Source of the DNA: Lactococcus allomyrinae
GTDB taxonomy: Bacteria > Bacillota > Bacilli > Lactobacillales > Streptococcaceae
Assembly: GCF_003627095.1 (NCBI RefSeq)
Contig: NZ_CP032627.1
Coordinates: 1,550,001-1,614,000, forward strand
Reading direction: 5' to 3'
DNA length: 64,000 bases
Numbering within the stretch: the stretch's first letter is position 1; every line of letters begins with the position of its first letter. The notes under the pieces are model-generated. The model was not told where the DNA came from. It did not search any database and worked only from the letters and a program-made list of their open reading frames with translations. Shown one piece after another: positions 3,001 to 63,725 of this stretch. The translations under genes and the position numbers were made by a program.

Positions 3001-3810
3001 AGACTGAAAATTATCACTCGTCACATTACTGTCAGAAGTTGTCACTGCTGAATTTCCACTCATTGCGTAACCATCATAAGTGTCTGACCAAGTTGAATTC
3101 CAACTTGCCAAGCCTGCATCGGTAGATTTCAGAGTAGCGTTTGCACCTCCACCCCCAATTCCTATGCCACGTTGAGTACCACTATAAGCACTCGGAAGTG
3201 TAACAGCACTGACAGTATTTGTACTCACTGACGAAAGTTCTGAATCTGTCGCAGGAGCCTGTTCTTTAACAGTCTCACTTTCGGTACTATCCTCTGCCAT
3301 ATTTCCTACATTCATAGTACTGTCAGTACTGACAGAAGAATCTTCACCCTTGTCAGCAGAAGTTGCCACGGTTTGTTCCTGAGCTGTACCATGAAGCGCT
3401 GAGTTTTGGTTAGAATGAGCCATTCCTTGAGCAGATGCATGAGACTGAGCATTCGTATTTGTATTACTTTTAGAGGCTTGTTGGACGGCAGGAGCTGTAG
3501 TTTCTTTCTGCCCTACTGTACCCGATGTAGTTGAATAACTCCACTGACTCCCATCCGTCAAATCTGATGACAATGTATCAGAAACTAAGTTTGAGCTATT
3601 ACCCACTTGCTGGCCAGCATACAGTTGACTTGATATCATATCTGCTGAAGCTACAATCGGACGCAGCGCCATTGGCGCAATATTTTGAACTACTGCGCCA
3701 GCTCCTAAAACAGTTGCGCTCAAAAGCAATCCACTCCCTACTTTTGCTGCAGCATGATTTTTGACTTGATTAATTATCTCCTGTTGATTTTGCTCTTTTT
3801 CACTCATCAT
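1..3810 (-). CDS. Large LAB surface adhesin, N-terminal part (C terminus outside the window)
   Basis: The frame is open from an ATG at 3810 (second ATG at 3807) to the window edge, 1270 codons without a stop. A GAGAAAGGGAGAG ribosome site precedes the start. Residues about 15-40 are a hydrophobic export segment. Residues about 209-331 and 990-1124 are two copies of one domain (YSGTQRGxGxGGGGAN start, NGVQYAGYL and YNLGAxFAxIN near the end). Residues about 422-612 resemble an L-type lectin-like domain, residues about 617-704 a MucBP domain, and the last 140 residues seen are Pro/Thr/Ser-rich, as in a wall-spanning stalk. The role is probably adhesion to mucus or glycans, inferred from the domains. 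The wall anchor is not visible because the gene is cut. A CTGTCAGTACTGACAG palindrome lies in frame near residue 160. Confidence 0.85.
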   Translation of the reverse strand, partial: MMSEKEQNQQEIINQVKNHAAAKVGSGLLLSATVLGAGAVVQNIAPMALRPIVASADMISSQLYAGQQVGNSSNLVSDTLSSDLTDGSQWSYSTTSGTVGQKETTAPAVQQASKSNTNTNAQSHASAQGMAHSNQNSALHGTAQEQTVATSADKGEDSSVSTDSTMNVGNMAEDSTESETVKEQAPATDSELSSVSTNTVSAVTLPSAYSGTQRGIGIGGGGANATLKSTDAGLASWNSTWSDTYDGYAMSGNSAVTTSDSNVTSDNFQSVLMQANISVDRVAYTNYIASPIMVNGVQYAGYLTTATGTVGDDFVIVVKATDGFTNYNLGANFAFINLSLTASSQALPSVATTSDNTTPEQLSATSNVSSVDDYSVSNPDGFINEASAENASSQTENTQSETNLNQSTEASETNPAEKTPTPRLSGDKLVMTGEQGEQQAVAQYHFPLDMSRPFKFGAHLNGLGTTPSSRSNYLGVTFTPTQSLTEQTSRALGIEGLPYSIFAGWSSDEYHHVLEVLTTDSKGTLLETGQSDVGINPKVELPVSVDGVSAMTVGWNPMMQFNDDIITGSLTVTVGGKTVTHANLKVPAQTYFGFVGAISGQHQSLSFDFSQSSFIASKKAAPILVHYLDQATGFSLAEPTIINGKLGQVFYIGAETNTHETNHYTTPKIAGYHEVSHREEIRKVTSDIAQNEVNIFYEGNPRQQETTYQLPNGEVYQATHHSFTGLDFPEVVIPQLDGYTSKVDGVFSTVIKSEHTDKNQAHTVTYDLIPQKASFDFSYDSTVADELPQLATVVQDGTSQAMIQMPTVSIPTGYFVSSVTTPEGEVFTGNTALKTALTAHPSFVSGDNNFVITLSASYQEAHLTINHPDGSQTYQFATGNTGKVFVFSDLEPKVTDNNGNTYHAVLTSADGTEISLTGTNISDRFDSTMNFGIVDQAIQQYKIDYVKDETTTVPIENMKNSQQAVSTVMPLSVTTEDSVSNIPTVSKTNIPNNYSGTQRGVGVGGGGANNSLTSVNAGLASWNSIWSDTYDGHKITGNSAVTTSDGNVTANNFQAVVQEANISVDGTPYTNYVASPITVNGVQYAGYLTNSDGTTAVDFMIVVKNTDGFEDYNLGADFAYINPSVTNTAPNNNSDNSTPTDSSEITTPPTSPNSTSSEPNQTPTTLPDGSDGATPTTPETPSSPVDIPPTDTTPSPDDDKSTTIPSENPNSTDTTPSIPKVVVPQVNTTVPPTGMIVPTVKVPKTKLQAEHAETTTKVPTKIIPTSNEGA
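3320..3335. repeat. CTGTCAG palindrome copy, in frame within the surface adhesin
   Basis: Perfect CTGTCAGTACTGACAG, here read as SVSTDS rather than LSVLT. Confidence 0.85.
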
Positions 3811-3848
3811 TAGCGCTCTCCCTTTCTCTCAACCGCTTTCTTATCTTT

Positions 3849-3877
3849 ATTCTACACTAACTCTATAAGTATTCCAA
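3849..3877 (-). promoter_or_regulatory. Probable sigma-A promoter of the surface adhesin
   Basis: On the minus strand TTGGAA is followed 17 nt later by TAGAAT, about 40 nt upstream of the adhesin start. The -35 is imperfect (4 of 6), the -10 good (5 of 6). Confidence 0.5.
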
Positions 3878-4009
3878 AAGTTACAACTTTACATCTTATA
3901 AAATTCATATTCACCCTTTATTACATCAAAAACGAAAAGGATATCATTATAATTTATGAGAGAAAAATTATAAAATAAAACTAAATAAGTATTTAAAGAA
4001 AGGAATATT

Positions 4010-4687
4010 ATGATGTCTAAAAACACAATTACTCTCAACTATTACTTCAATGTAAATCCACAAATGAGACAAAATCTTCAAAAAGCCAACCTCTCGTACG
4101 AAGTTGATTTTGAAGCTACAAGTGACCTCACACCTATCATAGAAAACTCTATTACCGTTGGACTAAGCCGTAAAATTATTGAAAGCGATGAAAAATATTT
4201 TCTAGGAGATTTTGACCTAAGCTTATCTGGTTACAAATTTGAAGGCTGGAAAATCGTTCGCGATAGTCACTATGTCCTTCCACATAAGCATGCTTTCACT
4301 CAAGTTGCGCTTTATGCAGGAGAAAAATCAATTATCCACACAACAGGTGTCGCTGACTCTGAATTTCTCTGGCAAACTGGAGAAAATTTCGAACCAAATA
4401 GTGATAATTATTCTTTTTATGCACAATGGACACCTCTTTCATACAAAATTAATTTCATCGCCCGAACAATTCATGGCTTATCTTTAGACTGGGCTGCAGA
4501 TTCTGCACAGAGAACAATAGAAACTGACTTTCAAATAAAAATAACACCCGAACTTCACGGCTATGATTTTGTAGGTTGGAACATTAATGGAAAAACTGAA
4601 ACCTGTAATAATGCTCATCATCAGCCCATCATTCCAGCAGGAATAGGGGACATAACCGCCATCGCATTATTTGATGATTACCTATAA
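4010..4687 (+). CDS. Protein with InlB B-type (Listeria-Bacteroides) repeats, no signal peptide
   Basis: This 225-residue protein has AAAGAAAGGA five to eight bases before the tandem ATGs at 4010 and 4013. Two segments fit the InlB B-repeat pattern: around residues 73-145 (GYKFEGWKI, then YAQWTPLSYKI) and residues 180-225 (GYDFVGWNI). Such repeats normally occur in tandem on exported or wall-anchored proteins. Here there is no signal peptide, transmembrane segment or LPxTG, so by sequence alone it would stay in the cytoplasm or leave by an unknown route. It is divergent from the large adhesin, with a shared 200-bp spacer, which hints at joint regulation. The specific function is unknown. Confidence 0.7.
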   Translation: MMSKNTITLNYYFNVNPQMRQNLQKANLSYEVDFEATSDLTPIIENSITVGLSRKIIESDEKYFLGDFDLSLSGYKFEGWKIVRDSHYVLPHKHAFTQVALYAGEKSIIHTTGVADSEFLWQTGENFEPNSDNYSFYAQWTPLSYKINFIARTIHGLSLDWAADSAQRTIETDFQIKITPELHGYDFVGWNINGKTETCNNAHHQPIIPAGIGDITAIALFDDYL

Positions 4688-4793
4688 AACTACTTAGTAT
4701 ATAAACATTATTTGGATTCCTCAATCAAATCATTTATATAAATGATAAAAAAATGATAATATTATTATAATAAAATTAGATTAAGGAATAACC

Positions 4794-4946
4794 ATGAAAG
4801 AAGAACAATTAATCACCATTTCAAATACAACAATAAAAAACGAAAAAAGTATCAATAAAACTTATAAAATTATGGAAGATAACACCCTTCTCTCCATTAT
4901 CACGTCAGAAAATTCAAAAACAGCATCTTGCCCCGATGCTGTTTAA
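4794..4946 (+). CDS. Possible 50-residue small protein
   Basis: The frame starts at ATG 4794 with AAGGAATA six bases upstream and ends at TAA 4944-4946. It is Lys/Ile/Thr-rich with no recognisable domain or membrane segment. Its last codons lie inside the hairpin at 4918-4944, which is unusual for a real gene and argues for caution. It sits between the InlB-repeat gene and the next unknown gene on the same strand. It could be noise or a decayed remnant. Confidence 0.3.
   Translation: MKEEQLITISNTTIKNEKSINKTYKIMEDNTLLSIITSENSKTASCPDAV
4918..4944. terminator. Perfect 10-bp hairpin, probable terminator
   Basis: AAACAGCATC and GATGCTGTTT pair across a 7-nt loop. The minus strand continues as a T-rich run (TTTTTGAATTTT); the plus strand has only a short T stretch. 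It may therefore end minus-strand read-through better than plus-strand transcripts. Confidence 0.45.
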
Positions 4947-5107
4947 TCCGCAATTCTACTCCTGACCATATCTTAGAAGCCAGAGTTCACCTTCACCATC
5001 ATCGCAGTTAAGGCAATATATCTCTCATAAAATCAACTCAACTCATTTTCTTTTGAAAATATACTTGATTTGCATCCACAAAACTCTCCATGAAAGGAAA
5101 ATTTAGC

Positions 5108-5665
5108 ATGGCTCCACATGACCTAGAACATTTTACACAAGAAATAGATAAAACTAAAAACTGGTCTAATCATCGCAAAAGTATGTACGGTATGTCAATA
5201 ATGGATAAACTTTCCATTACTGACGGCTCTGTCAGTGCTGACAGTACGCAAAATCCGATAATACCAGCAAGTGACCGAACATTGACAACACAACTTGTAA
5301 CAGAAATTCTTGATAAGCTTGTCAAATACGATGAAATTACACTTATTGACTGTCCCATTTTACCAATTTCTGTTTCATACCAAACAGTTCCTTTCTCTCA
5401 TACGCTCTTTCTCAGTCAACAACCTGGTATCCAATATATTTTAAATACTCATTTTTGGATAAAAGTAATGGATGACGTCCAAAATACTTTAGCATTAGTC
5501 GTAACTGGAGGTCTAACAGGAACCTTTACTTTCTACTGTGAAAAGTCAGATGGACAATTTGAAGAATTCACTATTCCTTTTCACAAAAACGGAATTTATC
5601 AACTCACCAATCTTACAGTTGACACCATCTATCTCAAAGATTCAGCACTAAAACTAAAAAAATAA
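5108..5665 (+). CDS. Unrecognised protein, 185 residues
   Basis: I place the start at ATG 5108 because AAAGGA ends nine bases before it; an in-frame ATG at 5090 has no ribosome site. The protein has no signal peptide or membrane segment. Its C-terminal half (residues about 90-185) is rich in beta-branched residues, suggesting a beta-sandwich fold. A CTGTCAGTGCTGACAG palindrome at 5229-5244 is read through in frame and encodes SVSADS. It follows the InlB-repeat gene on the same strand and ends at a convergent terminator. I recognise no family and assign no function. Confidence 0.6.
   Translation: MAPHDLEHFTQEIDKTKNWSNHRKSMYGMSIMDKLSITDGSVSADSTQNPIIPASDRTLTTQLVTEILDKLVKYDEITLIDCPILPISVSYQTVPFSHTLFLSQQPGIQYILNTHFWIKVMDDVQNTLALVVTGGLTGTFTFYCEKSDGQFEEFTIPFHKNGIYQLTNLTVDTIYLKDSALKLKK
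5229..5244. repeat. CTGTCAG palindrome copy, in frame within the unknown gene
   Basis: The sequence is CTGTCAGTGCTGACAG with one central mismatch. It is read as part of a coding sequence (S-V-S-A-D-S). Confidence 0.8.
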
Positions 5666-5692
5666 AGCGGGCAATCATCCGCTTATTCTTTT
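5665..5692. terminator. Convergent bidirectional terminator
   Basis: AAGCGG and CCGCTT pair around an 8-nt loop, with T-rich sequence on the plus side and T-runs from the flanking A-tract on the minus side. It lies between the converging unknown gene and the HAD gene. Confidence 0.6.
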
Positions 5693-8646: not shown

Positions 8647-8892
8647 TTTTTATATCTCCATTTAGAAAGAAACAAAAAAGCCAAAGCTGCGAAAAATATG
8701 CAACAAAATTTCTGTCATCTTGTCCTATACGTTGATGCCCTAGCACCAAGATAAAGTACAATTTAACAAATCTTTTTTTTCACATATTTTCCCGAGCTTT
8801 GACCATCGAGTTTCTAATCTTAGATATTGGTATTTTAACTCATTTTTCAATATTTTTCAAGAGATACTTTCCAATCAATAAACAAAAAACTT

Positions 8893-9307: not shown

Positions 9308-9337
9308 CCAAAAAGAAACGTCATCTTATGCCGTTTC
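9308..9337 (-). terminator. Terminator overlapping the end of the anchored-protein gene
   Basis: GAAACG and CGTTTC pair on the minus strand around a loop that contains the TAA stop codon; TTTTT follows. Confidence 0.55.
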
Positions 9338-11216: not shown

Positions 11217-12558
11217 GATGCCACCTGATTCCTGAAGCACTATCTTCCAAGATAATTCCTTTAGCTTTTAATTCATCTCTAATTTCATCTGCTTTGGCAA
11301 AATCTCTTACTTCACGCGCCAATTGACGGGCTTCAATCAATGTTTCAATCTCACTATCCAGATTTTCATCAACTTCAAATTTAATTCCAAGTATATTCAG
11401 CACTTCATCAAAAAATTGTTTAACTTCTATACCACCATTTCCTTTATTGACCCAACTTATAAAGTCATAAAAGACTGTCATACCGTTCGCGATGTTAAAA
11501 TCTTCGTCCATTTTACTGACAAAATCATTTTTGAATACTGTCAGTACTGACAAATCGCTGTCAGTGTTCAAATCCATATTGCGATAAGCATTTTCAATCT
11601 TTTTCAGATTATTTTCACTTGCAATCAGTGCATCATCTGTGAAATCTACTGGTCTACGATAGTGAGTTGTTGCAAGGAAGAATCTTAAAATCTGTGGATT
11701 CACATATTTTAGCATTTCGTGAACGGTTTTAAAATTTCCTAATGATTTTGACATTTTTTCGCCGTCTACATTGACAAAACCATTGTGCATCCAATAATTA
11801 ACAAATTTTTTGCCTGTTTTTGCTTCAGATTGAGCGATTTCATTAGTATGGTGGGGAAACTCAAGGTCTGCTCCTCCGCCATGAATATCAAGTGTATCTC
11901 CTAAAAGACTCGTTGCCATTACGGAACATTCAATGTGCCAACCAGGACGCCCCGCTCCCCAAGGTGCTTGCCATGAAATCTCACCTGATTTAGCTGATTT
12001 CCATAAGGCAAAATCAGCTGATGACTCTTTTCTTAAGCTTTCTTCATCTGTACGACCAGATGCTCCGGCTAATAATTCTTCTAAATTTTTATTAGCCAAT
12101 TTGGCATAGTCTTTTGCTTTAGAGACGCGAAAATAAACATCGCCTTCAGACACATACGCAAAATCTTTATCTAATAAATCTTGAATAAAATCAATCATAG
12201 GATAAATATATTCGCTTGCCTTTGGGTTGTGATCGGCTCGTTTGACATTTAAAGCATCAATATCTTCATAAAATGCCGCAATATAACGCTCTGAAAAAGA
12301 TTTTGTTGATGTATGTTCAAGCTGAGCTCCATGAATGATTTTATCATCAACATCAGTAAAGTTTGAGACGTAATCTACTTCAAAACCACGAAATTCCAAA
12401 TATTTTCTGATAAGGTCAAAAGCTACAACCGAACGTGCATTACCGATGTGAATATAGTTATAAACAGTTGGACCACAGACATACATCCTAACTTTGCCTG
12501 ATTCAATAGGATGAAATTCTTCACTCTTTCGAGTCATCGTATTATAAATTTTCAACAT
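11209..12558 (-). CDS. cysS: Cysteinyl-tRNA synthetase
   Basis: This 449-residue class I synthetase has the HIGN ATP site (YIHIGNARS, residues about 35-43) and KMSKSLGNF (about 265-273). The zinc ligands include the Cys of YVCGPTVY and the Cys of HIECSVM. It charges tRNA-Cys. It sits in an operon cysE - TMEM175-type gene - cysS - mrnC, which links cysteine supply with its use. A CTGTCAGTACTGACA palindrome at 11538-11552 lies in frame and encodes LSVLT near residue 338, in the helical C-terminal region, where an insertion would be tolerated. Confidence 0.97.
11538..11552. repeat. CTGTCAG palindrome copy, in frame within cysS
   Basis: CTGTCAGTACTGACA, encoding LSVLT on the coding strand. Confidence 0.85.
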
Positions 12559-13885: not shown

Positions 13886-14649
13886 TTAATCAGACAATTC
13901 ATCCCATATGCTAATTGTATCTTGGTAATGTTCTAAGTCATCCAATGGATTGATTGTAATTCCTGAAGCATTTTCAAACCTGTTTGTCACATCTTCTGGA
14001 TGCAATAACTCATGGATTGTTAAAAACAACACCTGCCCATTATTTTCTTTGAAAGGTTGACTAAAATACGGTTCATCATACCATTTTGACAAACTATCCA
14101 GATTATCAAACAAAGGCAAATACTCTTGCCCATCCTGAGCAACTAGGTTTGGAAAAATTCGTTCACTTTCCGAAACAAAAGCTGGGATGAGATAATATTT
14201 TTCCATCTTAGAAGCAGATTGATTTTCTGGGCTAAAAAGTGTGTTCAAAATATCAGTATAATGTGTCAAAAATTTCGTCAGCTCAGTCGTTCCAAAGTAA
14301 GCTGTATTGCCTGTATCTTCATCTTGAGGCAATTTTGGATTGACTGCAACAATATCAATATCAGTTTCTTTCAGAAGTTCAAGAACTTCAATTATCGAAT
14401 GAAGCTCCCACTCTGTTTCAAAGTCTGTCAGTTCTGACAGAAAAATATTCAAATCATTTTCTGTTGTAAACACAGGTATTGCTTTTCGCTCCGCCATTGG
14501 TACGTAAAAAACCTTTTTAGGAGCTAAGACTGGAAATTGATGAAAAGCATAAGCCAATGACAAATCCTCCATAAAAGCCCAGGATTCGCTAAGGACAGAC
14601 GCAAACGCTCATCTAACTCCGAATTAATATTGTAAGTTGCCATCATCAT
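13886..14649 (-). pseudogene. SseB-like protein, frameshifted near its N terminus
   Basis: The long frame (14572 down to 13886, 228 residues) resembles its neighbour at 15051-15803 along its whole length: IPVFTTEND versus LPVFTSKKS, YLPLFDNLDSLSKWYDEPYF versus YVPLFDNFESLLTWYSEPYF, GITINPLD versus GVTINPLD. It has no ribosome site at 14572. The missing N terminus (SELDERLRLSLAN, matching EELEPKLRAAIAN) is upstream in another frame, starting at the ATGs 14643-14649. One extra T in the T-run at 14573-14576 would join the two. The pair is a tandem duplication with one damaged copy, or a sequencing error. The SseB-type function is unclear. An in-frame palindrome at 14425-14440 encodes LSELTD. Confidence 0.75.
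14425..14440. repeat. CTGTCAG palindrome copy, in frame within the SseB-like gene
   Basis: CTGTCAGTTCTGACAG; the coding strand reads LSELTD. Confidence 0.8.
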
Positions 14650-14947: not shown

Positions 14948-14965
14948 CTGTCAGCGTACTGACAG
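14948..14965. repeat. CTGTCAG palindrome copy, intergenic, 18 bp
   Basis: CTGTCAGCGTACTGACAG, a near-perfect inverted repeat downstream of the SseB gene. Confidence 0.8.
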
Positions 14966-15008: not shown

Positions 15009-15024
15009 CTGTCAGTACTGACAG
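15009..15024. repeat. CTGTCAG palindrome copy, intergenic, 16 bp
   Basis: A perfect CTGTCAGTACTGACAG 27 bases after the SseB stop codon. Confidence 0.85.
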
Positions 15025-22589: not shown

Positions 22590-22607
22590 CTGTCAGCATA
22601 CTGACAG
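22590..22607. repeat. CTGTCAG palindrome copy, intergenic, 18 bp
   Basis: CTGTCAGCATACTGACAG, 20 bases before the DUF1831 start. Confidence 0.85.
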
Positions 22608-23024: not shown

Positions 23025-23053
23025 AAAAAACTGTCAGCATACTGACAGTTTTT
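23025..23053 (-). terminator. tuf terminator built from a CTGTCAG palindrome
   Basis: CTGTCAGCATACTGACAG (23031-23048) is flanked by A-run and T-run, giving a stem followed by T6 on the minus strand. It is both a member of the palindrome family and a credible terminator for tuf. Confidence 0.75.
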
Positions 23054-37400: not shown

Positions 37401-39108
37401 TTGTATTTACTAAATTGATATCTTGGCCAATGTAGTTGGCATCATTGGATAATGGAACTGTTGTATTGCCTACTGTATCCCCATTTTGATTAATATAATT
37501 AATCTGTATATTCCCAACAGGTAAAGCATTAGTTTGAAGCTCACGTGTACTAGTATTAATAATATTAGATGTTGCTGTTCCACCATTAACTGTAGTCGTT
37601 CCATTTTGAACTGTTAAAGTTCCAAAGGTACCAGTTGCATCTGGAGTAGCTGGCTTAGCATTTGTTCCTTGCCATGAATCAATGCTAGAATTATTCATGC
37701 TAAATGTTCCTGCACCAGTAACTAACCTACCTGCAATAGGGTTTCCTGAAGCATTATATATTCCGAGATGTAAGCTTTTAGGAGAAATAAAGGTTACCGA
37801 AGATGTTCCTGCCATCTGAATTACACTACCTGCAATCCATTGTTGAATATCAAGTGTTGTTCCTGCATTAAATAAAACTTTTTGTGTGCCTGTTGTTTGA
37901 ATAGCACCAGCTGCTACAATCTTAGGAGCAGATAAATTAAAGTTTTGACCAAAAGTAAAGGTAGCATTCGCAACGCTTCCTTGTGTTCCATTGATAAAGT
38001 ATTGGAAACCAGTCTGAGTCCAATTAACATTATCACCAGCTGTTATTCCGTCCACATACATATATGCTGCAGGATAGTTAGCCGCTTGTCCATTGTAGGT
38101 ATTAGCTGTATTTGAAGAACCATCTCCCATCGTAATGGTATTTCCATAACCGGCTGTTCCCGATGGTGCACGAACTGCAAAATAAAATTCTGAAAATGCT
38201 ACATCATTGGAGGTACGATTAAGTGTTACACTTGAATTATTCGCAATATTAACACCAGTAACGTAACGAGTAACTTCATTTGATATATTAAAGACATTTG
38301 TTCCAGAAAATACTACTTTTGCATAATAACTAACCAGTACATGAATTGGATTATTACCGTTTGAAGCACTCTTAGTTAATGTCACATTATTAACATTTGC
38401 CGTTAATTGCCCACCTGCCCCACCAGAAGTTTGTATGAGGGCATAGCCATCTCCATCATTTACGGCAAATCCTTGTTGAGCTTGCATATTACTTAATGTA
38501 AAAGTAGTAGGAGTTGTGATATTTGCCCAACTAAATGTTTGCGTTCCGAGGTCAACTGTATTATTATTACCTTGAACAATGACACTAGCACCATTGGCAC
38601 GAGCAGACATTGCTGTTCCACCAGTAGTAGGATAAGTAATGTTAGCCGTAATATCAATGTAAGTAATATTAGAATTCGCCCATGCACTTTGTAATTGTGC
38701 ATATGTTGTTACATTTGCATAGGTACCATTAGCTATTGCGGTTGCTTTATAAGTAGCATCATTCACAACTTGATCAGGAGTTGCAACAGTAACTGATGTC
38801 GGTGATGCAGGTGTTGTACCAAGACCGCTTTCAAAACTTCCACGATTAACGTCTGGGTCTGTTGCAACTTGATTAATAGTTCCACCAGCCGTTGTTCCTA
38901 ATGCCTGAGTAGAAGGTATAGTGGTTCCAGATGTGTTGGCTAAAACAGGTTCAGCTTGCACTGCTACTGCTACACCTGCTGCACCACCACCTAATACGCT
39001 GACTGTCGATATCGCTGCGTACATCCAACGTTTCTTACTTTTATACATCCTATATCTTAATTTCGGTTCGGAGATAATTTTGGATATATTTTTATTTTTT
39101 AAATTCAT
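28462..39108 (-). CDS. Giant serine-rich repeat glycoprotein adhesin, LPxTG-anchored
   Basis: The 3548-residue protein starts at ATG 39108 with AGGAAAT upstream. Residues 1-58 are the special long signal of serine-rich repeat proteins, with [10 protein letters not shown], a variant of KxYKxGKxW, before the hydrophobic core. Residues about 60-530 look like a beta-solenoid binding region (TYAQLQSAW, pectate-lyase-like turns). Residues about 535-740 contain MucBP-like units ([24 protein letters not shown]). Residues about 741-3470 are almost entirely Ser-X repeats. LPKTGE is at 3508-3513, then a hydrophobic helix and KRKK tail for sortase. It is the evident substrate of the neighbouring SecA2/SecY2 and Gtf proteins. 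The ligand is unknown. Confidence 0.95.
28948..35690 (-). repeat. Higher-order tandem repeat, 2118-bp period, in the adhesin gene
   Basis: A basic 120-bp unit (40 residues) is repeated with variants. A rare variant, ACTCAACGAATTAG, recurs at 29641, 31759 and 33877, exactly 2118 bp (706 residues) apart. Comparing flanks, copy 1 (28948-31065) matches copy 2 line by line, and copy 3 follows from about 33184 with a few changed units near its start. The period is a multiple of three, so the frame is kept. Confidence 0.9.
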
Positions 39109-47108: not shown

Positions 47109-48320
47109 TCAAAATAATTTATAATGCCCTTTAGCAAGCATAAATCGAATATCCTCATGAAGATTGTCTACTATGATAATTACCATGAAAATACTTCCGA
47201 AATAAAATGCTAGATTTGACACATCTGAAATCTTTAATCCTATTATCAGTGGCACAAGCGAGACGATAAGCATATAGATATTTCCCATGATTATCATGAT
47301 ATTTAATCTTCGTCGGAGATATTTTTCTGTTTCCTCTCCTGGTATTACTCCAAGGATATAGTCTCCTGAATCTCTCAAAGATTTAGCAATATCATGAACT
47401 CGAATATTAACATGACTAAAGCCGTAACCTAGAATAGTTAATATCACACCATACGTAATGATTCCTAAAAGAGAAGTGTATGAGAACATTTGAGTTATAA
47501 TATACAAAAAAGCGCTACCTTTCAGAGATGGGATCATGGTTAATAACTGTGGAATGGAAAACAAAGTGACACCAAACATAAAAGGTAATGCACCAGCGGC
47601 TAATACTTTTATAGGGATGTATGAATTTTCAAATGTAACATCCATTCCTGTCTGCTGAATTTTAATTCTATATTCTCCTCGATATAAAAATACTGAGATG
47701 TAAAGAAACGCGATGGTAACGAGTGCCAATATTCCCAATCCGAGTGGAGTAGTGAATAAACCATCCGCTGTTTGCCCTGAAAATAACATCGCAGGAATAT
47801 TTGCCAAAAGCCCAGGTAAAATAATTACCATCTGTTTTCCGATTCCTTTTTTCATATTCATATCTGCAATATAAGAAACTATCATTCCGCCTGCTATCAG
47901 GATTATCATTAAAGCTAAATGAACTTCATTTTTGGATAGCATTGCAACATCACTGTAAATGATGCTCTCTTTAAAATGAGCTATTATTGTGAAAGATTGC
48001 AATATACAAAACATAAAAGTCAATACACGTTGTATAAATCCAGCTTGTTTCGCTGATAGATTCTTAATTACATCAATGTCAAGCATCGTGAGAGTACTCC
48101 AAAGAATCAAAGCAATCATATATGGACCTAGTCCAAGAGAAAAGAGTGTTAATTTTGTTGCATTACCAGCAGTCATATTTGCGAAAATTCTCATAATACC
48201 TGCTGATTCTATATTAGTTGACATTGTTAAGGGAAGCTGGAGTTTTCCTCCAAACTGAACAACTATAATAAATAAAAATGTCCATAAACATCTTTTTATA
48301 GCCCCGTAATATTCTTTCAT
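47109..48320 (-). CDS. secY2: Accessory translocase channel SecY2
   Basis: This 403-residue protein has about ten predicted membrane segments, as in SecY. It has SecY-like stretches such as GGKLQLPLTM near TM1, the LGLGPYMIALILWS second helix, and ANIPAMLFSG; the loops are shorter than in housekeeping SecY. It forms the export pore for the glycosylated adhesin with the SecE-like and SecG-like subunits of this cluster. Confidence 0.93.
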   Translation of the reverse strand: MKEYYGAIKRCLWTFLFIIVVQFGGKLQLPLTMSTNIESAGIMRIFANMTAGNATKLTLFSLGLGPYMIALILWSTLTMLDIDVIKNLSAKQAGFIQRVLTFMFCILQSFTIIAHFKESIIYSDVAMLSKNEVHLALMIILIAGGMIVSYIADMNMKKGIGKQMVIILPGLLANIPAMLFSGQTADGLFTTPLGLGILALVTIAFLYISVFLYRGEYRIKIQQTGMDVTFENSYIPIKVLAAGALPFMFGVTLFSIPQLLTMIPSLKGSAFLYIITQMFSYTSLLGIITYGVILTILGYGFSHVNIRVHDIAKSLRDSGDYILGVIPGEETEKYLRRRLNIMIIMGNIYMLIVSLVPLIIGLKISDVSNLAFYFGSIFMVIIIVDNLHEDIRFMLAKGHYKLF

Positions 48321-48396
48321 CCTATATCGTTCCTACATTATCGTTATCTTTATTTTTTACCCTACGCTAAACGTGCTCACTAGGTTTCTTCACAAA

Positions 48397-50775
48397 TCAC
48401 GGAAACTCAATATCTATAGATCCATCAGGATTTACAAATAATTCAGATAGTAGCAAGTTTCTAGTTATATCTAGCCAGAGTTTTTCTATTGTTTCTGTAA
48501 AATATCGATTAGCTTCTATCTGAAACTCATATAAAGGCTGATGCTGAGCCCAATTTCGATTTTTTACTACTGATTTTAGCTGCACAAGACCATCTGCTAA
48601 ATCTATCCATAGTGAATCTAACGATTTCAATATGATAACCCGCCTATAATAATTTAGCTGATATTTATTTGATAAGTTATTTTCCATTATTTTTGTTCGC
48701 TCAGAAATATTTTCTACCAAAATGTTAGCAGTAGCTTTACGACCAATACTTTTTAAGTTTTTTAGTTCCTCTCTATCGTAAGAGTAATTAATGTTATTAA
48801 ATATAAAATCTGATACTTTTTGAGTTTCCAAATTTTTTTTGTCTGAAACAAATGTGCTTATAACTTCTTCAAAACTTTTCTCAATAATTTTTTCAAAATA
48901 CTCTGCTTGTGCTTCCATTACTGTATTTCTCGCTGCATATACACGTTTCCTAAGAACACTTACAATGTCATCATAATCCAATGTGTCTTTTCGCATTTTA
49001 ATATCTTGATTTTTTTTATTTTTTTGAGATTTATAAACGAGTTTCTTATACTTTCTTTTCTTCAATATTCCTTGTCTGCTTGCATCATGACTTGACAAGT
49101 TTTCTTGTTTTTTTCTAAATTTTTTGACCCAGTCAGGAGCATTTTCTACAACTACTCTATCTTCTAAGGAAGCAAAGAAATAACTATCTCCTGGCTCTCC
49201 TTGTCTTCCTGCTCGTCCTCTAAGCTGATTATCAATACGTTCACTTGTCATATTTTCTGTCCCGATGACAATTAATCCGCCGTGTCTTTCACTAAATTTA
49301 TCCAGTTTGATGTCCGTACCACGTCCAGCCATTGCTGTTGCTACGGTCACAGCTCCTCTCTTTCCTGCCTCGCTGATGATTTGTTTTTCCTTATAGGCAG
49401 TTGATGCATTTAATATGCTATGAGGAATTCGACTGTTTAATAATAGATTTGAATAAAGTTGAGATTTTGATACTGAACCAGTTGAAATTAAAACTGGTCG
49501 TTCGCTTTTTATTGAATCTTTGACCAATTCTAATGACTGCAATATTTTTTCTTTATGAGTAAGATAGATTATATCTTCATGATCTGTTCTAATAATCGGC
49601 TTATGAGTGGGAAGGCATATGACATCTATACCATATGTTTCTCGTAGCTCCTCTGCATCTGTTTTTGCTGTTCCTGTCATTCCAGATAGGATTTTAAACA
49701 TTTTGAATAAGTTTTGGTAAGTGATTGACCCCATTGATTTTGTTTCATTAGTAATCTCTACGCCCTCTTTTGCTTCTATTGCTTGATGCATCCCACCTTG
49801 TAGTTTTGTCCCTTGAAGCTTTCGCCCATTCATCTCATCTAAAAGAAATATTTCCTGATCATCAAGAACATAATCTCTATTATTTTTAAAAACATAATTT
49901 GCCTTCAAAGAAAGTACTGCATGCCTATAAAGGTCTTTATAATTCTCGCTTAAGATTTCTTGAACACCAAAATGTGTTTCCGCCTTTTTTATACCTTCCT
50001 CTAGGAACCATACACTTCTTTTGTCTTCACTTAAATCATAATCTTCGCTAAAATTTAGACTTTTCACAAACTTATCAACCATTACGTAGAGATTAGATTG
50101 TAACTTTGGAGCTCCTGAAATAATTAAAGGAGTTTGTGCCATATCCAAAAGTATTGAGTCTAGTTCATCAATAATTACAAAGTTAAATCCTTGTATATAT
50201 TGTTTTTCTTTTTCTACTGCTAAATTATCAAGAAGATAATCAAATCCTAAGGCACTATGAGTCGTATATACGATATCTGAAGAATAGATGATTTGCTTAT
50301 CCAGCTCCTTATCGTATTCATTTTTCTTTACTCCTACTGCTACGGAAAGCCCTAGCCATCGGTACACTCTGCCGACATCTTCGGCATCTCTCCATGCTAA
50401 ATATTCGTTTGCAGTTACAACAAAATTTCCACTTCCTACAAGTGCTCTGAGGTACATTGGCATTGTTGCCGTCAAAGTTTTACCTTCGCCTGTCTTCATT
50501 TCTGCGACATTTCCAAAGAAGAGGATTACAGCTCCTAAAATCTGAACATCGTAGGGTTTCAAACCTAATATCCTTCTATCTGCTTCAATCACAACACCAT
50601 AGGCTTCTGGGAGTATCTTCTCTAATTTTTCTCCTTGCTCAATTCGTTCTCTAAAGATTTTTGTCTGCTTCTTTAATTCTTGATCAGACATCTCTTTGTA
50701 TTTGGGAATATTTTGTTTAATTTTTTTAGTTATTTTTTCGTATTTTCTATATTTATTGTTTTTTTTCATGTCCAT
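48397..50775 (-). CDS. secA2: Accessory export ATPase SecA2
   Basis: This 792-residue protein has all SecA motor motifs: Walker A in MKTGEGKTLTA, DELDSILLD (Walker B), ILSGMTGTAKT, AMAGRGTDIKL and LRGRAGRQGEPGDSYF. It lacks the C-terminal zinc-binding tail of SecA1, as is usual for SecA2. It drives export of the glycosylated adhesin. It is the first gene of the operon here, whereas in streptococci secA2 lies after asp3. Its best ribosome site (AAAGGTGAG) is rather far, 14 nt from the start ATG. Confidence 0.95.
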   Translation of the reverse strand: MDMKKNNKYRKYEKITKKIKQNIPKYKEMSDQELKKQTKIFRERIEQGEKLEKILPEAYGVVIEADRRILGLKPYDVQILGAVILFFGNVAEMKTGEGKTLTATMPMYLRALVGSGNFVVTANEYLAWRDAEDVGRVYRWLGLSVAVGVKKNEYDKELDKQIIYSSDIVYTTHSALGFDYLLDNLAVEKEKQYIQGFNFVIIDELDSILLDMAQTPLIISGAPKLQSNLYVMVDKFVKSLNFSEDYDLSEDKRSVWFLEEGIKKAETHFGVQEILSENYKDLYRHAVLSLKANYVFKNNRDYVLDDQEIFLLDEMNGRKLQGTKLQGGMHQAIEAKEGVEITNETKSMGSITYQNLFKMFKILSGMTGTAKTDAEELRETYGIDVICLPTHKPIIRTDHEDIIYLTHKEKILQSLELVKDSIKSERPVLISTGSVSKSQLYSNLLLNSRIPHSILNASTAYKEKQIISEAGKRGAVTVATAMAGRGTDIKLDKFSERHGGLIVIGTENMTSERIDNQLRGRAGRQGEPGDSYFFASLEDRVVVENAPDWVKKFRKKQENLSSHDASRQGILKKRKYKKLVYKSQKNKKNQDIKMRKDTLDYDDIVSVLRKRVYAARNTVMEAQAEYFEKIIEKSFEEVISTFVSDKKNLETQKVSDFIFNNINYSYDREELKNLKSIGRKATANILVENISERTKIMENNLSNKYQLNYYRRVIILKSLDSLWIDLADGLVQLKSVVKNRNWAQHQPLYEFQIEANRYFTETIEKLWLDITRNLLLSELFVNPDGSIDIEFP

Positions 50776-51350: not shown

Positions 51351-51371
51351 ATATTAATGCGTGTATATCAA

Positions 51372-51458
51372 GGAGAGTAAGGGATTCGAACCCTCGCGTC
51401 AGTTTCCCGACCTAACGATTTAGCAAACCGTCCTCTTCAGCCTCTTGAGTAACTCTCC
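51372..51458 (-). tRNA. tRNA-Ser (GCT anticodon)
   Basis: 87 nt on the minus strand. GGAGAGT and ACTCTCC form the acceptor stem; the anticodon loop reads TTTGCTAAA (GCT, for AGC/AGT codons). The long variable arm and the T-loop GTTCGAATC fit tRNA-Ser. CCA is not encoded. Its 3' end faces the adhesin island. Confidence 0.95.
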
Positions 51459-52267: not shown

Positions 52268-52283
52268 CTGTCAGTACTGACAG
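52268..52283. repeat. CTGTCAG palindrome copy, intergenic
   Basis: A perfect CTGTCAGTACTGACAG six bases after the DUF4044 stop codon. Confidence 0.85.
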
Positions 52284-55534: not shown

Positions 55535-55850
55535 ACAAAAAAACGGTCTTCGCAAAGGACGAAAAACCGTGGTACCACCTTATTTTTTTCTGTCAGTATA
55601 CTGACAGAAACTCAGAACGTGTAACGTACGCGACGCTTGAACTTACAGAATGTTCAGTTCAAGAAATTATGCTCAACAGTCATGTTCAAAAGTAAGATGA
55701 GCCTCAGAACACCTTGAATGTTTACTGACAGAATTTTTGTCAGTAAATATGTTGAAACAAATCAGCTGATGATAAGAAAAACAGAGATTACGGAACTTCC
55801 ATCAACTTCCGCTCGCTAGAAATATATTTTTCAAACCTTGGTCTGACTTC
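55535..55850 (-). promoter_or_regulatory. T-box riboswitch controlling ileS
   Basis: The T-box motif GGTGGTACCACGG is at 55567-55579 on the minus strand. The competing terminator stem (ACCG with CGGT) lies at 55544-55569, followed by T7. Upstream, the stem I region contains GTTGATGGAAG. An ATC triplet (55786-55788, minus) after it is a good isoleucine specifier. Uncharged tRNA-Ile would favour the antiterminator and raise ileS expression. A CTGTCAGTATACTGACAG palindrome sits just upstream of the T-box motif. Confidence 0.88.
55590..55607. repeat. CTGTCAG palindrome copy inside the T-box leader
   Basis: A perfect 18-bp CTGTCAGTATACTGACAG between the stem I region and the antiterminator. Confidence 0.85.
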
Positions 55851-56894: not shown

Positions 56895-57686
56895 TTACTT
56901 CTTACTATTTTTAGTAAGTTCAATTTCAACTCTCTGCTTACCTTTTTTCGTCAGCCCCAAAATTTTCACAATCTTGACTCGACCAAAACCACGAACACTA
57001 ATCAAATCGCCTTCAGTAACAGAGAAATCTTTTTTATTTATTTCAAGGTAATTAATCTTAACCTTATTTGATTCTAACATATTCGTCGCAATATTGCGAG
57101 AAATTTTAAAAGAAACAGCGATGATTTTATCAAGTCTCAAACTATCTACAAGAACAACATCACTGACAGGATTATCAGTGGTTTCTGTCAGTGCTGACAG
57201 CGAAATTTCTTTGATTTTTACTGCACTACGGCCTATTTTATCAATAGACTTAAATATATTTACCAAATGTTTACTGACAAAAACTTGAATATTCTTGTCA
57301 GTAACAATAATATCTCCTAGCTCTTGCCTTTTGACTCCTGTTTGTCCTAAAAAAGTTCCTAAAACTTGAGCATGTGAAATTTGTGAAAATTTCGTTGCAT
57401 AATTAATTTCAAGCAAGGATAAATCAAAATCCTCAACATCTAAAATGTAAAATTGCGGAGCTAAAATCATTTTTGAAAGTTCTGTAACTGCGAAATCCTG
57501 ACTTGAAAAAATATGTACTTCTCGTTTATTCACTAGACTTTGGAGAATTTGACATTCACGAGGGTTCAAAAAGTGAGTCGTTATCACTGAATAAGATTGT
57601 TCAACTTGATTGATCCAATCCACACAACGATCAATAAATCTTCGCTCCTCAGGATGAAAATGCTGATAAATATTTTCAGATGTCAA
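56895..57686 (-). CDS. ylmH: RNA-binding protein YlmH (S4 domain)
   Basis: This 263-residue protein has a C-terminal S4 domain (ISRNIATNMLESNKVKINY, then DLISVRGFGRVKIVKI). The N-terminal part is the YlmH domain with QILQSLVNKREVHIF and LGTFLGQTGVKRQELGDI. YlmH binds ribosome-associated tRNA and takes part in ribosome quality control. It overlaps yggT by 4 nt. A palindrome at 57185-57200 encodes LSALTE in frame, and TTACTGACAA/TTGTCAGTAA near 57267-57302 is another in-gene inverted pair. Confidence 0.9.
   Translation of the reverse strand: MTSENIYQHFHPEERRFIDRCVDWINQVEQSYSVITTHFLNPRECQILQSLVNKREVHIFSSQDFAVTELSKMILAPQFYILDVEDFDLSLLEINYATKFSQISHAQVLGTFLGQTGVKRQELGDIIVTDKNIQVFVSKHLVNIFKSIDKIGRSAVKIKEISLSALTETTDNPVSDVVLVDSLRLDKIIAVSFKISRNIATNMLESNKVKINYLEINKKDFSVTEGDLISVRGFGRVKIVKILGLTKKGKQRVEIELTKNSKK
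57185..57200. repeat. CTGTCAG palindrome copy, in frame within ylmH
   Basis: CTGTCAGTGCTGACAG, read as LSALTE. Confidence 0.85.
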
Positions 57687-58545: not shown

Positions 58546-58576
58546 ATTTTCCTCCGTTGTTTACTTTGAAAGTAGC

Positions 58577-59254
58577 TTACAAGTCTTTAAAAAACTCTGT
58601 GCCAATCCTAACAAAGGTCGCACCATTTTTAATTGCATTCTGATAATCTCTACTCATTCCCATACTTAATTCAGTACAAGGGATATTAGGAATTTTCATC
58701 TCAGATATTTCAACTTGTAATTTTTTTGTTCGTCCGAAAATGTCATCACATTCTTCTTCAGTTGCATCAAACGGAGCCATAGTCATCAAACCAACAATTT
58801 TAATATTTTCTAATTTTGACAACTCTGTTAATACTGACAGAAGTTCATCAGCGGAAAATCCATGCTTACTTTCTTCACCTGATATGTTTACTTCTACAAA
58901 ACACTTGATAACGTGATTCGCACGTTTGTTAATTTCATTGGCTAGTTTCACAGAATCCAACGCATGAAAATAATCAACAAAATTAATCACATCTTTCACT
59001 TTTCGTCTTTGTAAATTACCAATCAGATGCCAAGTTACATCATACTCCTTCAGAGAATTATATTTTTCAAGAAAGAGATCAACTCGATTTTCAGCAATAT
59101 GCTTAATTCCATTTTCAATCACTTCGCGTGCAACATCAGAAGTAACATATTTTGTCACCGCAATAACAGAAACCGACTGATTAGAATAAGAAGACGCAGC
59201 CTGCGCCGCATCTACATTACTCATTATTTGTTTAACATTTTCTATAATTGTCAT
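58577..59254 (-). CDS. PLP homeostasis protein YggS
   Basis: This 225-residue PLP-binding protein has the lysine in VSVIAVTKYVTSD, and family motifs HLIGNLQRRK, VNISGEESKHGF and LSMGMSRDYQNAI. It keeps free pyridoxal phosphate in balance; it has no known catalysis. It follows ftsZ by 3 nt. A decayed palindrome (near 58823-58840) encodes LSVLTE. Confidence 0.93.
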   Translation of the reverse strand: MTIIENVKQIMSNVDAAQAASSYSNQSVSVIAVTKYVTSDVAREVIENGIKHIAENRVDLFLEKYNSLKEYDVTWHLIGNLQRRKVKDVINFVDYFHALDSVKLANEINKRANHVIKCFVEVNISGEESKHGFSADELLSVLTELSKLENIKIVGLMTMAPFDATEEECDDIFGRTKKLQVEISEMKIPNIPCTELSMGMSRDYQNAIKNGATFVRIGTEFFKDL

Positions 59255-59257
59255 TGA

Positions 59258-60493: not shown

Positions 60494-60523
60494 GTTTTTT
60501 ATTTCTCCGTATTTACTTTCAGA

Positions 60524-61897: not shown

Positions 61898-62002
61898 AAA
61901 AGCGACTCCTTTCCCTCACACATCACGATTCGTATTTTTTTAATAAAAGCTAAGTGCACAGATATTTTTGTATGCAATTACACTCATTAATTATTTTAAC
62001 AT

Positions 62003-62042
62003 AAAATCACAGTAAAACAAGAGTTTAGCTGTGATTTTTTTA
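62003..62042 (-). terminator. Terminator between degV and ftsA
   Basis: AAAATCACAG and CTGTGATTTT form a 10-bp stem with T-runs on both strands. Confidence 0.75.
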
Positions 62043-62055
62043 CTTTTTTATTAAA

Positions 62056-62925
62056 TTAACTTCTATCTATTTTTCCTATTGAAAAAAGTGCGATAGTCCC
62101 TTCTCCCGTATGGGTTACAATCGTAGGACTTAATGGGCGAACATCTACATCTGTAATTTTAGATTTTTCAATGATTTCAGATTTTATTTGTTGAGCAATC
62201 TCATCTGTTCCAGAGTAAGAAACAATGACTTTCGGATAAGCCATATCCATATCCTCGAGTGTCTTATCAATCAGTTGATTAATTGCTTTTTTCTTTCCTC
62301 GAACTTTGGAAACTTGACGAAGTTTACCCTCAGTGTCAACATCCAAAAGAGGTTTGATACTAGCCATTGTCCCAACTACTGCCACAGCTTTCGGAATTCT
62401 TCCACCTCGTGCTAAATGATTCAGATCGTCAACCATAAATCGGCTCTGTAAACGTTTTGTCAGTACTGACAGGATCTCCAGTGTTTCTGTCAGTGATTTA
62501 CCAGCATCACGTAATCTAACTACTTCTTCAACAATGAAACCTTCTCCAGATGCCGCAGCAAGTGTATCTAAAACGATAATTTTTGCCTCTGGAAACTCCT
62601 CTAAAACCATATCACGTGCGATAACAGCTGACTGATAAGTTCCTGAAAGCCCAGATGAAAACGCAAGATATAGCAACTCCTCATTCTTCTTTGCAAATGT
62701 CTTAAAAACTTCTGAAAATTGTCCAGAATTAATTTGTGATGTCTGAACAGTTTCTCCTTTTTTGATTGCTGCAAGGAGCGTAGCATTATCTAGTGCTTCA
62801 TTCCCAATTGTTTCATAGGTTTTGTTGCCAATAGTCACAGTCATTCCAAGTATTGTAATGTCATGTTGTTCAAGATAAGTCTGACTCAAATCTGCTGTTG
62901 AGTCCGTCATAATTTGAAAAGTCAT
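62056..62925 (-). CDS. DegV family fatty-acid-binding protein
   Basis: The start is ATG 62925 (MTFQIMTDSTADLS), after GGAAGGAATTTT. A longer frame begins at 62967, but its extra 14 residues come from a palindrome. The 289-residue protein has the DegV (FakB) pattern: TDSTADLS, VQTSQINSGQF, FSSGLSGTYQSA, RGGRIPK. FakB proteins present fatty acids to the kinase FakA. An in-frame palindrome at 62458-62472 encodes LSVLT near residue 153. Confidence 0.9.
   Translation of the reverse strand: MTFQIMTDSTADLSQTYLEQHDITILGMTVTIGNKTYETIGNEALDNATLLAAIKKGETVQTSQINSGQFSEVFKTFAKKNEELLYLAFSSGLSGTYQSAVIARDMVLEEFPEAKIIVLDTLAAASGEGFIVEEVVRLRDAGKSLTETLEILSVLTKRLQSRFMVDDLNHLARGGRIPKAVAVVGTMASIKPLLDVDTEGKLRQVSKVRGKKKAINQLIDKTLEDMDMAYPKVIVSYSGTDEIAQQIKSEIIEKSKITDVDVRPLSPTIVTHTGEGTIALFSIGKIDRS
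62458..62472. repeat. CTGTCAG palindrome copy, in frame within the degV-type gene
   Basis: TGTCAGTACTGACAG, encoding LSVLT. Confidence 0.85.
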
Positions 62926-62948
62926 AAAATTCCTTCCGTAATCTTTTT

Positions 62949-62964
62949 CTGTCAGTACTGACAG
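62949..62964. repeat. CTGTCAG palindrome copy upstream of the degV-type gene
   Basis: A perfect 16-bp copy between rlmB and the degV-type gene; in-frame reading produces a false N-terminal MLSVLTE extension. Confidence 0.85.
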
Positions 62965-62996
62965 CATTTCCGCTAACTGACGATCTTTTGTCAGTT

Positions 62997-63725
62997 TTAT
63001 TTTCGATTTCTAAAAATTTCATACATCAAAATACTAGCTGCAACACTGGCATTTAGACTTTGAACGTGTCCAATCATCGGAATGGTAATCATTTCATCAA
63101 CTTGTTTCTTGAGATTTTGCCCAATACCATGTCCTTCATTGCCTATAACCAGAGCAACTTTTCCAGCAGTATTCCATTTTGGATACGAAGTACCATCCAT
63201 ATCTGTACCAAAAATCCAGAATCCCTCTGCTTTTAGCCTATCAAGTGCTTGAGAAAGGTTCGTCACTCGAACAACAGGAACATATTGTAGCGCACCAGTC
63301 GAAGCCTTAACCGCTGTCGGTGTAATTCCAACGGAGCGATGTTTTGGAATAATAATTGCATCAACACCTGTTGCATCTGCTGTTCTTGCGATAGAACCCA
63401 AATTATGAGGGTCTGTCAGTTCGTCCAGAATCAAAATTGTTGCTTCTGTTTTTTCTGTCAGTACTGACAGAATATTGTCTAGCTCTGCGTAGGCAAATTC
63501 AGACACACGAGCCACAAATCCTTGATGAACTCCATTTTCAGTCATTTTATTTAGCTCATTTTTAGGTGTCCAAGAAATATTAACTTTCTTAACTCGCGCA
63601 AGCTCTTTTACCTTTTCGACATTTTTGCCGCGTAAATCTTCTTGAATATAAAGCTTGTTCACAGTATCGCCATTTAGTGCTTCGGTCACTGCATGTAAGC
63701 CATAGATTAAATCTGTATTTTCCAT
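62997..63725 (-). CDS. rlmB: 23S rRNA 2'-O-methyltransferase RlmB (TrmH family)
   Basis: The start is ATG 63725 (MENTDLIYGLHAVTEAL). The 242-residue SPOUT enzyme has an N-terminal substrate-binding domain and the knot motifs LTDPHNLGSIARTADATG, LVIGNEGHGI and QSLNASVAASILMYE. It methylates G2251 (E. coli numbering) in the ribosomal P loop. The region just before ATG lacks a ribosome site, while a TATAAT ends seven bases before ATG, suggesting a leaderless mRNA. A palindrome at 63455-63470 encodes LSVLTE in frame. Confidence 0.92.
   Translation of the reverse strand: MENTDLIYGLHAVTEALNGDTVNKLYIQEDLRGKNVEKVKELARVKKVNISWTPKNELNKMTENGVHQGFVARVSEFAYAELDNILSVLTEKTEATILILDELTDPHNLGSIARTADATGVDAIIIPKHRSVGITPTAVKASTGALQYVPVVRVTNLSQALDRLKAEGFWIFGTDMDGTSYPKWNTAGKVALVIGNEGHGIGQNLKKQVDEMITIPMIGHVQSLNASVAASILMYEIFRNRK
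63455..63470. repeat. CTGTCAG palindrome copy, in frame within rlmB
   Basis: CTGTCAGTACTGACAG, encoding LSVLTE between the N-terminal and SPOUT domains. Confidence 0.85.

Follow-up and report, generated by a model that had tools for sequence, protein, structure and literature searches.

Sites in the window

The window, by which we mean the whole 64-kb stretch of Lactococcus allomyrinae DNA that was analysed, carries a recurrent palindromic word within and between genes, among them a surface-protein ORF, cysS, ylmH, degV and rlmB. The names RlmB (SpoU methylase), DegV, CysS and YlmH are backed by Pfam; the SseB-like protein gave no Pfam family match at 1e-5. Matches to CTGTCAGNNCTGACAG with at most three mismatches number 18, eight of them exact, whereas 100 shuffles of the window yielded a mean of 2.35 matches and a maximum of 7 under the same limit. 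Eight exact gap-2 dyads and four exact gap-4 dyads were located which, together with one-mismatch copies at 11538 and 62457, account for the "about 14" palindromes of the original prediction. The half-site cluster that it had placed at 850-930 was found at 854-920, and its readings of the word as LSVLT in CysS, DegV and RlmB, as LSALTE in YlmH and as LSELTD in the SseB-like protein agree with the translations. The sites are listed below, with strand given for the direct half-sites.

854..920, + strand: direct half-site cluster (CTGACAG at 854, 872 and 914, CTGACAA between), in the reverse-strand surface-protein ORF 1..3810
3320..3335: gap-2 palindrome, within the surface-protein ORF
5229..5244: gap-2 palindrome, within ORF 5090..5665
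11538..11564: one-mismatch palindrome with an extra half-site, in cysS, read DLSVLT
14425..14440: gap-2 palindrome read LSELTD, in the SseB-like gene; also present in G052
14948..14965: gap-4 inverted pair, intergenic
15009..15024: gap-2 palindrome, intergenic
22590..22607: gap-4 inverted pair, intergenic
23031..23048: gap-4 inverted pair flanked by A/T runs, adjoining the EF-Tu gene where two genes converge; terminator-like
52268..52283: gap-2 palindrome, 3' of ileS
55590..55607: gap-4 inverted pair preceded by a T run, in the gap separating ileS from a divIVA-like gene
57163..57169, + strand: half-site in ylmH; the aligned place in other species reads CTGACAG, CTGACCG or CTGAC-GG
57185..57200: gap-2 palindrome, in ylmH, read LSALTE
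58825..58840: two-mismatch palindrome, in a ylmE-like gene; perfect in G060
62457..62472: one-mismatch palindrome, internal to degV, read LSVLTK
62949..62964: gap-2 palindrome, at the 5' end of the degV ORF
63455..63470: gap-2 palindrome, in rlmB, read LSVLTE; gapless in all 8 relatives compared

Inverted pairs at the place equivalent to 55590..55607 are also found in genomes G060, G052, G008 and G062. The copy at 62949 falls at residue 2 of the degV ORF and the Pfam DegV domain match begins at residue 17; this palindrome probably lies upstream of the true start.

Unit of the word and genome-wide abundance

The genome-wide count that had been proposed as a check placed the word far above expectation: the exact palindrome CTGTCAGNNCTGACAG occurs 203 times against 0 for the reversed control, and the half-site TACTGACAG 916 times against 17 for its control. 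The unit is the non-palindromic half-site, approximately TACTGACAGAA, with a CTGAC core and a total length of about 9-11 bp, and the palindromes are inverted pairs of half-sites. The palindrome had at first been taken as the unit; that view was abandoned because G052 has 963 half-sites and just 13 gap-2 palindromes.

Half-sites TACTGACAG lie on both strands (474:442), and no replication-strand bias of the sites was detected (leading:lagging 256:240). GCGCGTG, which we take to be the lactococcal Chi, gave 55:20 in the same DNA. A viral sequence collection was also scanned and returned 16 contigs, each with one palindrome place.

Origin, placement and maintenance of sites

As judged from the alignments, sites in genes arose by gapless substitution, not by insertion. 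Among alignable relatives no gap was seen at the sites in RlmB, YlmH, YlmE, DegV (62457) and the SseB-like protein, which contradicts the earlier suggestion of inserted sequence of the Rickettsia palindromic element kind. In CysS, extra residues are present in two relatives and absent from the window copy. Relatives mostly have other residues at the site, and not LSVLT encoded by other codons. Low counts or LSVLT in unrelated codons would have told against the original prediction, and both checks turned out in its favour.

Sites within genes use several reading frames. Site density is 1.64/kb in intergenic and 0.58/kb in coding DNA, and 314 of the 496 sites sampled are coding. Direct pairs and single half-sites are common. 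Gap-2 pairs lie inside genes in 36 of 50 cases; gap-4 pairs are intergenic in 27 of 31 and adjoin a T run in 24 of 31. From position and T runs, inverted pairs are predicted to sit in terminator-like places.

The sites are maintained: 127 sites were 86% intact, compared with 71% for control 7-mers, and changes per base amounted to 0.021 inside sites versus 0.065 in their flanks. The imported DNA that was examined is depleted, with 2 sites against 21.5 expected in plasmid stretches (28.3 kb) and 1 against 33.9 expected in a surface-protein island (26.8 kb).

Helical phasing

The sites are clustered, and the spacing of neighbouring sites recurs every ~10.3 bp, both within genes and between genes. 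CTGACA ranked first of 2,080 6-mers for helical phasing. The phasing is present in three orientations, with some signal out to 111-200 bp, and in G024 a different dialect word is phased as well. A codon or amphipathic-helix effect was considered as the cause and rejected, because same-strand pairs are phased equally in coding (R 0.67) and non-coding DNA (R 0.65), opposite-strand pairs are likewise phased, and frames are only partly kept (53 of 110 coding same-strand distances divisible by 3, against ~37 expected).

A non-exhaustive literature search found no genome-wide word with comparable helical phasing, and to our knowledge phased clusters have not been described for DNA uptake sequences (DUS) or uptake signal sequences (USS). 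The phasing is a strong physical clue to the protein that reads the word, and we infer that this protein does so from one helix face.

Dialects and word-poor relatives

Several Lactococcus species carry the word hundreds of times per genome. Relatives carry dialects of it, and sister species differ. The L. petauri group has no word, and no clear word was seen in G066, G064, G068 or the pair G037 and G017 (58-109 kb each); in G055 and G046 it looks weak or like a remnant.

Competence genes and search for a receptor

Within the genus, comGA was found in 18 of 18 genomes and comEC in 17 of 18. Of the six genomes richest in the word, four, the present one included, have competence genes that look damaged or are unclear. 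The comG run is open in G060 and G008, and in G060 comGB-GG and ComEA match NCBIfam or ComEA models. In G000, comGB is split into two pieces; in G049, comEC is split and both comGD and comGG contain stops; in G062 no comGC-GG was seen 3' of comGB. The run of G052 was not called open because its comGC lacks a usual start codon, with no ATG, GTG or TTG between the preceding stop and the prepilin motif. In the word-poor genomes G064, G066 and G055, comGA, comEA and comEC are open.

ComGC-GG and ComEA were compared by eye for a candidate receptor, and none stands out. Genes behind the box TTTTNCGTATA, which had been seen before comGA and comEA, were screened for the same purpose. The box stands before comEA, whose product is backed by NCBIfam models, and before ORFs read as coiA-, dprA-, comFA-, radC- and recQ-like. 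The coiA-, dprA- and comFA-like names are mere readings, since these ORF starts (98-110 residues) had no NCBIfam match at 1e-3. Nor does the box prove a regulon, as its 25 matches in G052 and G060 together do not exceed background (28 for the reversed control). A secreted repeat-rich protein behind the box in G052 showed no tie to the word. The available part of PMC12040237 locates DNA binding in Streptococcus pneumoniae at the minor pilins of the pilus tip, and for this reason DNA lying along the pilus shaft is not claimed as an explanation of the phasing.

Interpretation

The explanation that we favour, and place just on the probable side, is that in a group of Lactococcus species the word serves as a genome-wide self-DNA mark like the DUS, which a multivalent receptor would read from one helix face. 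This receptor would sit on the surface of competent cells, either as a tip pilin of the competence pilus or as another protein held in the wall or membrane, and would bind half-sites from that face. Half-sites whole helical turns apart, overlapping inverted pairs included, would be bound jointly, and DNA bearing them would be preferentially taken up and recombined. Such biased uptake and recombination would convert near-matches to matches, and this molecular drive would let words accumulate as substitutions in chromosomal DNA that is old and recombines, in permissive frames and intergenic DNA, and would leave recent imports still without them. Changes of the receptor would give rise to species dialects. 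Besides the sequence features described above, the spread of comGA and comEC through the genus and the parallels in Neisseriaceae speak for this reading. Against it count the damaged or unclear com genes of word-rich genomes, the open ones of word-poor genomes, the phased clusters, which are not known to us from DUS or USS, the description of uptake words in Gram-negative families only, and the background-level count of the box TTTTNCGTATA. A more far-reaching version is put forward tentatively, as possible and not as our expectation: self-DNA recognition in transformation may have evolved independently in Lactococcus, the first such case in Gram-positives, with a receptor array that reads the phased cluster and dialects that isolate species sexually.

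The main rival, which we hold to be unlikely and yet far from negligible, is that the sites are bound inside the cell by a cooperative chromosome protein (nucleoid-associated, segregation or self-marking) along one DNA face. Clustering, inverted half-sites and the phasing with its longer-range signal are traces that a cooperative binder would leave, and words are present in genomes with damaged com genes; however, such a protein demands that selection act separately on hundreds of weak sites, with coding DNA holding most of those sampled, and the word differs between sister species and is missing from the L. petauri group. Improbable in our estimate is an iterated word like HIP1, which mismatch repair, DNA methylation or some other mutational process would keep in place and which would play no part in uptake. 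The substitution origin and high copy number do resemble HIP1, but the unit is non-palindromic, its dialects turn over quickly and helical phasing is not something that a mutational process predicts. That the sites are terminators or other RNA hairpins only can be given very little weight: it would suit the gap-4 pairs with their intergenic position and T runs, but not the majority of sites and of gap-2 pairs, which lie in genes, nor the abundant direct pairs and single half-sites. Insertion of a palindromic element like those of Rickettsia, suggested by palindromes in frame in several genes, retains almost no probability: it is refuted at the sites compared, and single half-sites are common. 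A polar sequence, Chi-like or FtsK-orienting (KOPS), would have a copy number of similar order and is scarcely credible, since the strand symmetry refutes it.

If the uptake reading is true, a further, unrelated origin of uptake words, in Gram-positive cocci, would be added to those described, and the spread of uptake words by drive and the choice of DNA by monoderm competence pili would be opened to test. Donor DNA carrying phased words might then aid the transformation of difficult lactococci.

Comparison with known systems

The analogy with DNA uptake sequences drawn in the original prediction holds for anatomy: the number of copies, their origin by substitution, the dialects, the terminator-like flanks of inverted pairs and the scarcity in foreign DNA. 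In the available parts of PMC5031613 and PMC7811141, sequence-specific uptake words are described for no more than two Gram-negative families. The DUS of Neisseriaceae, as presented in the portion of PMC3630211 at hand, resembles the Lactococcus word in being short, in its very many copies in coding and intergenic DNA, in inverted pairs tied to terminators and in species dialects around a fixed core. The same portion describes overlapping dyads in some species (simDUS/kingDUS of Simonsiella muelleri), which are comparable to those seen here and were taken to suggest dimer-based recognition (PMC3630211). The Lactococcus word is unrelated to the DUS, has a Gram-positive host, occurs in helically phased clusters and has a putative role in uptake. 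The Pasteurellaceae USS is likewise a short word (9 bp) with about 1,000 or more copies and inverted pairs in terminators, according to the available text of PMC1852404; word, host group and helical phasing differ.

Cyanobacterial HIP1, in the accessible descriptions, is also a short word highly iterated in coding DNA, but it is a single 8-bp palindrome, whereas the Lactococcus unit is non-palindromic, phased and species-variable. Rickettsia palindromic elements are insertions that place palindromes in frame inside genes; the in-frame palindromes are shared, but the Lactococcus sites are substitutions. In contrast to the single-site DUS and USS, the signal proposed for Lactococcus would be a phased cluster on one helix face, not one word.

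Abundance and unit of the word

The palindrome family of the original prediction (CTGTCAG..CTGACAG) was present as described. The window, C1:1,550,001–1,614,000, contained 18 matches within 3 mismatches (2.35 expected), 8 of them exact. Both arms were perfect in 12 dyads, separated by 2 bases in 8 of them (gap-2) and by 4 bases in the other 4 (gap-4). The gap-2 palindrome was counted 203 times genome-wide (2,758,410 bases, 3 contigs) and its reversed control 0 times. Half-site TACTGACAG had 916 genomic copies (474 / 442 on the two strands), its control 17. The proposed count against a Markov model gave the same picture, with CTGTCAGTA 45-fold above second-order expectation in the first 464 kb sampled (144 observed, 3.2 expected). 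Because tandem-array words also scored high in this k-mer scan, each word was counted once per 1-kb bin in later scans, and the window's large adhesin gene was masked for spacing and frame analyses.

From aligned sites, the half-site was read as TACTGACAGAA followed by a T-rich stretch, and the palindromes are inverted pairs of it. The half-site is primary, since genome G052 of the genus combines 963 half-sites with 13 gap-2 palindromes. In samples of 34–479 kb, CTGTCAG-2-CTGACAG pairing was found in the own genome (G000), its sister G060, G062, G046 and G032, with gap-4 pairing as well in G000 and G060. The order was reversed in G008 and G030, and close pairs were scarce in G052 and G049.

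Origin and upkeep of sites

The idea that the motif is inserted sequence failed on alignment: alignable relatives were gapless at the RlmB, YlmH, YlmE, DegV (62457) and SseB-like sites and mostly carried other residues (at RlmB, ILSVLTEK in the window versus ILPALAEK or ILAQVADK), so these words arose by substitution. For CysS, two relatives had extra residues and the window copy none.

In 653 kb, 314 of 496 CTGACAG sites were coding, 178 intergenic and 4 at edges, i.e. 0.58 per kb coding versus 1.64 per kb intergenic; genes were called by an ORF rule, which makes these densities approximate. Four reading frames were in use (LTE, TDR/ADR, LSV/LSA, SVS), the Cys-Gln frame was rare (5), and no coding site lay in the frame giving a TGA stop. 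This usage points to DNA, not to one peptide.

In comparison with G060, 86% of 127 CTGACAG sites were intact; for 33 control 7-mers matched in G+C the average was 71% (sd 0.135, largest 1.0). Sites had 0.021 changes per base and flanks 0.065. The alignment spanned 155,785 bases at 94.8% identity. It covered only about one-third of the G000 sample, since the guessed G060 places were frequently mismatched. The window's CTGACA was retained at aligned places in 63/77 cases in G060, 13/45 in G052, 7/45 in G008 (CTGACC in 4 more), 2/42 in G024 (CTGACG in 3 more) and 0/30 in G037.

Genomic context

The imported DNA that was examined has few words. Plasmid stretches (28.3 kb) had 2 words versus 21.5 expected, and window region 24.5–51.3 kb had 1 versus 33.9. 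The latter contains a surface-protein ORF and SecA-/SecY-family genes, which together look like an accessory adhesin secretion island:

28462–39108, minus strand: surface-protein ORF, 3,548 aa
28397–36628: long ORF antisense to the surface-protein ORF
47109–50775, minus strand: SecY- and SecA-family genes after the surface-protein ORF

Among the low-density chromosomal stretches, three (L036, L037, L041) included presumed phage/plasmid, polysaccharide and accessory transport or surface genes. At gathering score, Rfam recognised a single feature in the window, a tRNA gene (51371–51458, minus strand).

Gap-4 pairs were intergenic in 27 of 31 cases, and 24 of 31 were flanked by a T run on one or both sides (random places, 8% per side). 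The word had no strand polarity (256:240). GCGCGTG, which we take to be the lactococcal Chi site, was over-represented and favoured the leading strand 55:20 (own genome, 31 stretches sampled), as expected for Chi.

Helical phasing

Spacing was analysed for 898 CTGACA sites in 652,850 bases. Same-strand distances between neighbours peaked at 20–21, 30, 41–42, 50–51 and 60–61 bp, and both inverted arrangements also peaked at phased distances. Rayleigh statistics were calculated at a period of 10.35 bp, picked after scanning several (best 10.0–10.25). At 16–60 bp, they gave R=0.66 for same strand (n=148, p~1e-28), 0.60 for reverse-then-forward (n=55, p~3e-9) and 0.68 for forward-then-reverse (n=83, p~2e-17). 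In the same order, R was weaker at 61–110 bp (0.29, 0.24, 0.40; 0.24 not significant) and 0.36, 0.40 and 0.29 at 111–200 bp. Phasing persisted when only a single pair was taken from each kb (mean R 0.65, 0.57, 0.69) and was alike in coding and non-coding DNA. Of 2,080 6-mers, CTGACA scored highest (statistic 122.6; the median was 1.93). Next came ACTGAC, CTGTCA and TACTGA, which either form part of this word or nearly match it. Pair excess fell from 6.6 times expectation within 6–25 bp to 1.1 at 1–2 kb.

G024's word CTGACG was phased (same strand, n=22, R=0.81, p~5e-7) and topped the 6-mer scan of that genome. Phasing was weaker in G052, G062, G049 and G030, and not significant in G046 and G032; G008 and word-less G037 had almost no pairs. 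G060 was phased as well, but as sister of G000 is not an independent case. The phasing suggests that a reader of the word would contact several half-sites from one helix face.

Species range and dialects

Among 18 genus genomes, half-site counts were 994 (G060), 963 (G052), 916 (G000), 763 (G062), 681 (G049), 438 (G008), 184 (G046), 74 (G024) and 55 (G055); the nine others had 8–18 (controls 10–21). K-mer scans revealed dialects:

G052 and G049: TTACTGACAGAA
G008: palindrome of type TTACTGACAGAGCTGTCAGTAA
G024: TACTGACGGATT
G030: TTTTGACAGAACT
G032, another genus of the family: GCTGACAGA

ACTGACGG occurred 309 times in G024 (control 68) and 9–137 times in the other 17 genus genomes. No clear word emerged from scans of G037 with G017 (L. 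petauri type), of G064, of G068 or of G066. The palindrome was found in 3/398 genomes of a Bacillota sample (the own and two with a single copy) and in 20/147 of the family, own included. The GCTGACAGA dialect, outside the genus, suggests an older or second origin. G032 (L108–L110) had 212 gap-2 palindromes, yet only 11 TACTGACAG.

In a tree of YlmH, ComGA, ComGB and ComEC, G064, G068 and the L. petauri group were set apart from the remaining genomes with 82% support. Branches among these remaining genomes were weak (backbone support 44–66%), and the word-poor G066 and G055 fell among word-bearing species. The genus is Lactococcus: G043, one of the genus genomes, is identical to L. petauri over 3.8 kb, and YlmH from the window shares 63% identity with its L. 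formosensis and L. petauri counterparts.

Competence genes

comGA was found in 18/18 genus genomes and comEC in 17/18 (not found in 71%-complete G068). G060 ComGB–GG matched NCBIfam models above cut-off, and its ComEA matched ComEA models. Two of the six most word-rich genomes, G060 and G008, had an open comG run, as did dialect genomes G024 and G030. comGB was in two pieces in G000 (L180, C1:1,905,500–1,912,800) and one ORF in G060; G052 comGC lacked any usual start codon; in G049, comGD and comGG were interrupted by stops and comEC was split. After comGB, G062 (L190, G062:C7) had no comGC–GG match, and phage-like ORFs instead. comGG matches were short throughout the L. petauri-type group (L191–L195: G037, G017, G043, G040, G058), which also lacks the word; in G037, comGD was also interrupted by a stop and comEC was split. 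In word-poor G064, G066 and G055, comGA, comEA and comEC were open. Competence machinery thus exists, and its tie to the word is circumstantial. G052 also encodes a secreted-looking, repeat-rich protein of 1,072 aa between rnj- and ffh-like genes (L281:628–3846), with an upstream box resembling that before comEA.

Interpretation and comparison with known systems

The main rival reading, that the words are sites of an intracellular cooperative binder, is rather unlikely. The best-supported account, which we favour by a modest degree, is an uptake-sequence-like mark with a putative multivalent one-face reader. In the open-access text covered by the searches, no report of the palindrome was recognised, nor any of uptake words, whether for Lactococcus or for another Gram-positive. 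Neisseriaceae have dialects around a fixed core and inverted pairs tied to terminators, and Simonsiella has 1294 occurrences in overlapping dyads, read as suggesting dimer-based recognition (PMC3630211); uptake signal sequences (USS) likewise lie in terminators (PMC1852404). Dialects with a fixed core, terminator-linked inverted pairs and dyads are close parallels between the Neisseriaceae system and the Lactococcus word, whereas host, word and phasing differ from the known systems (Neisseriaceae DUS, USS).
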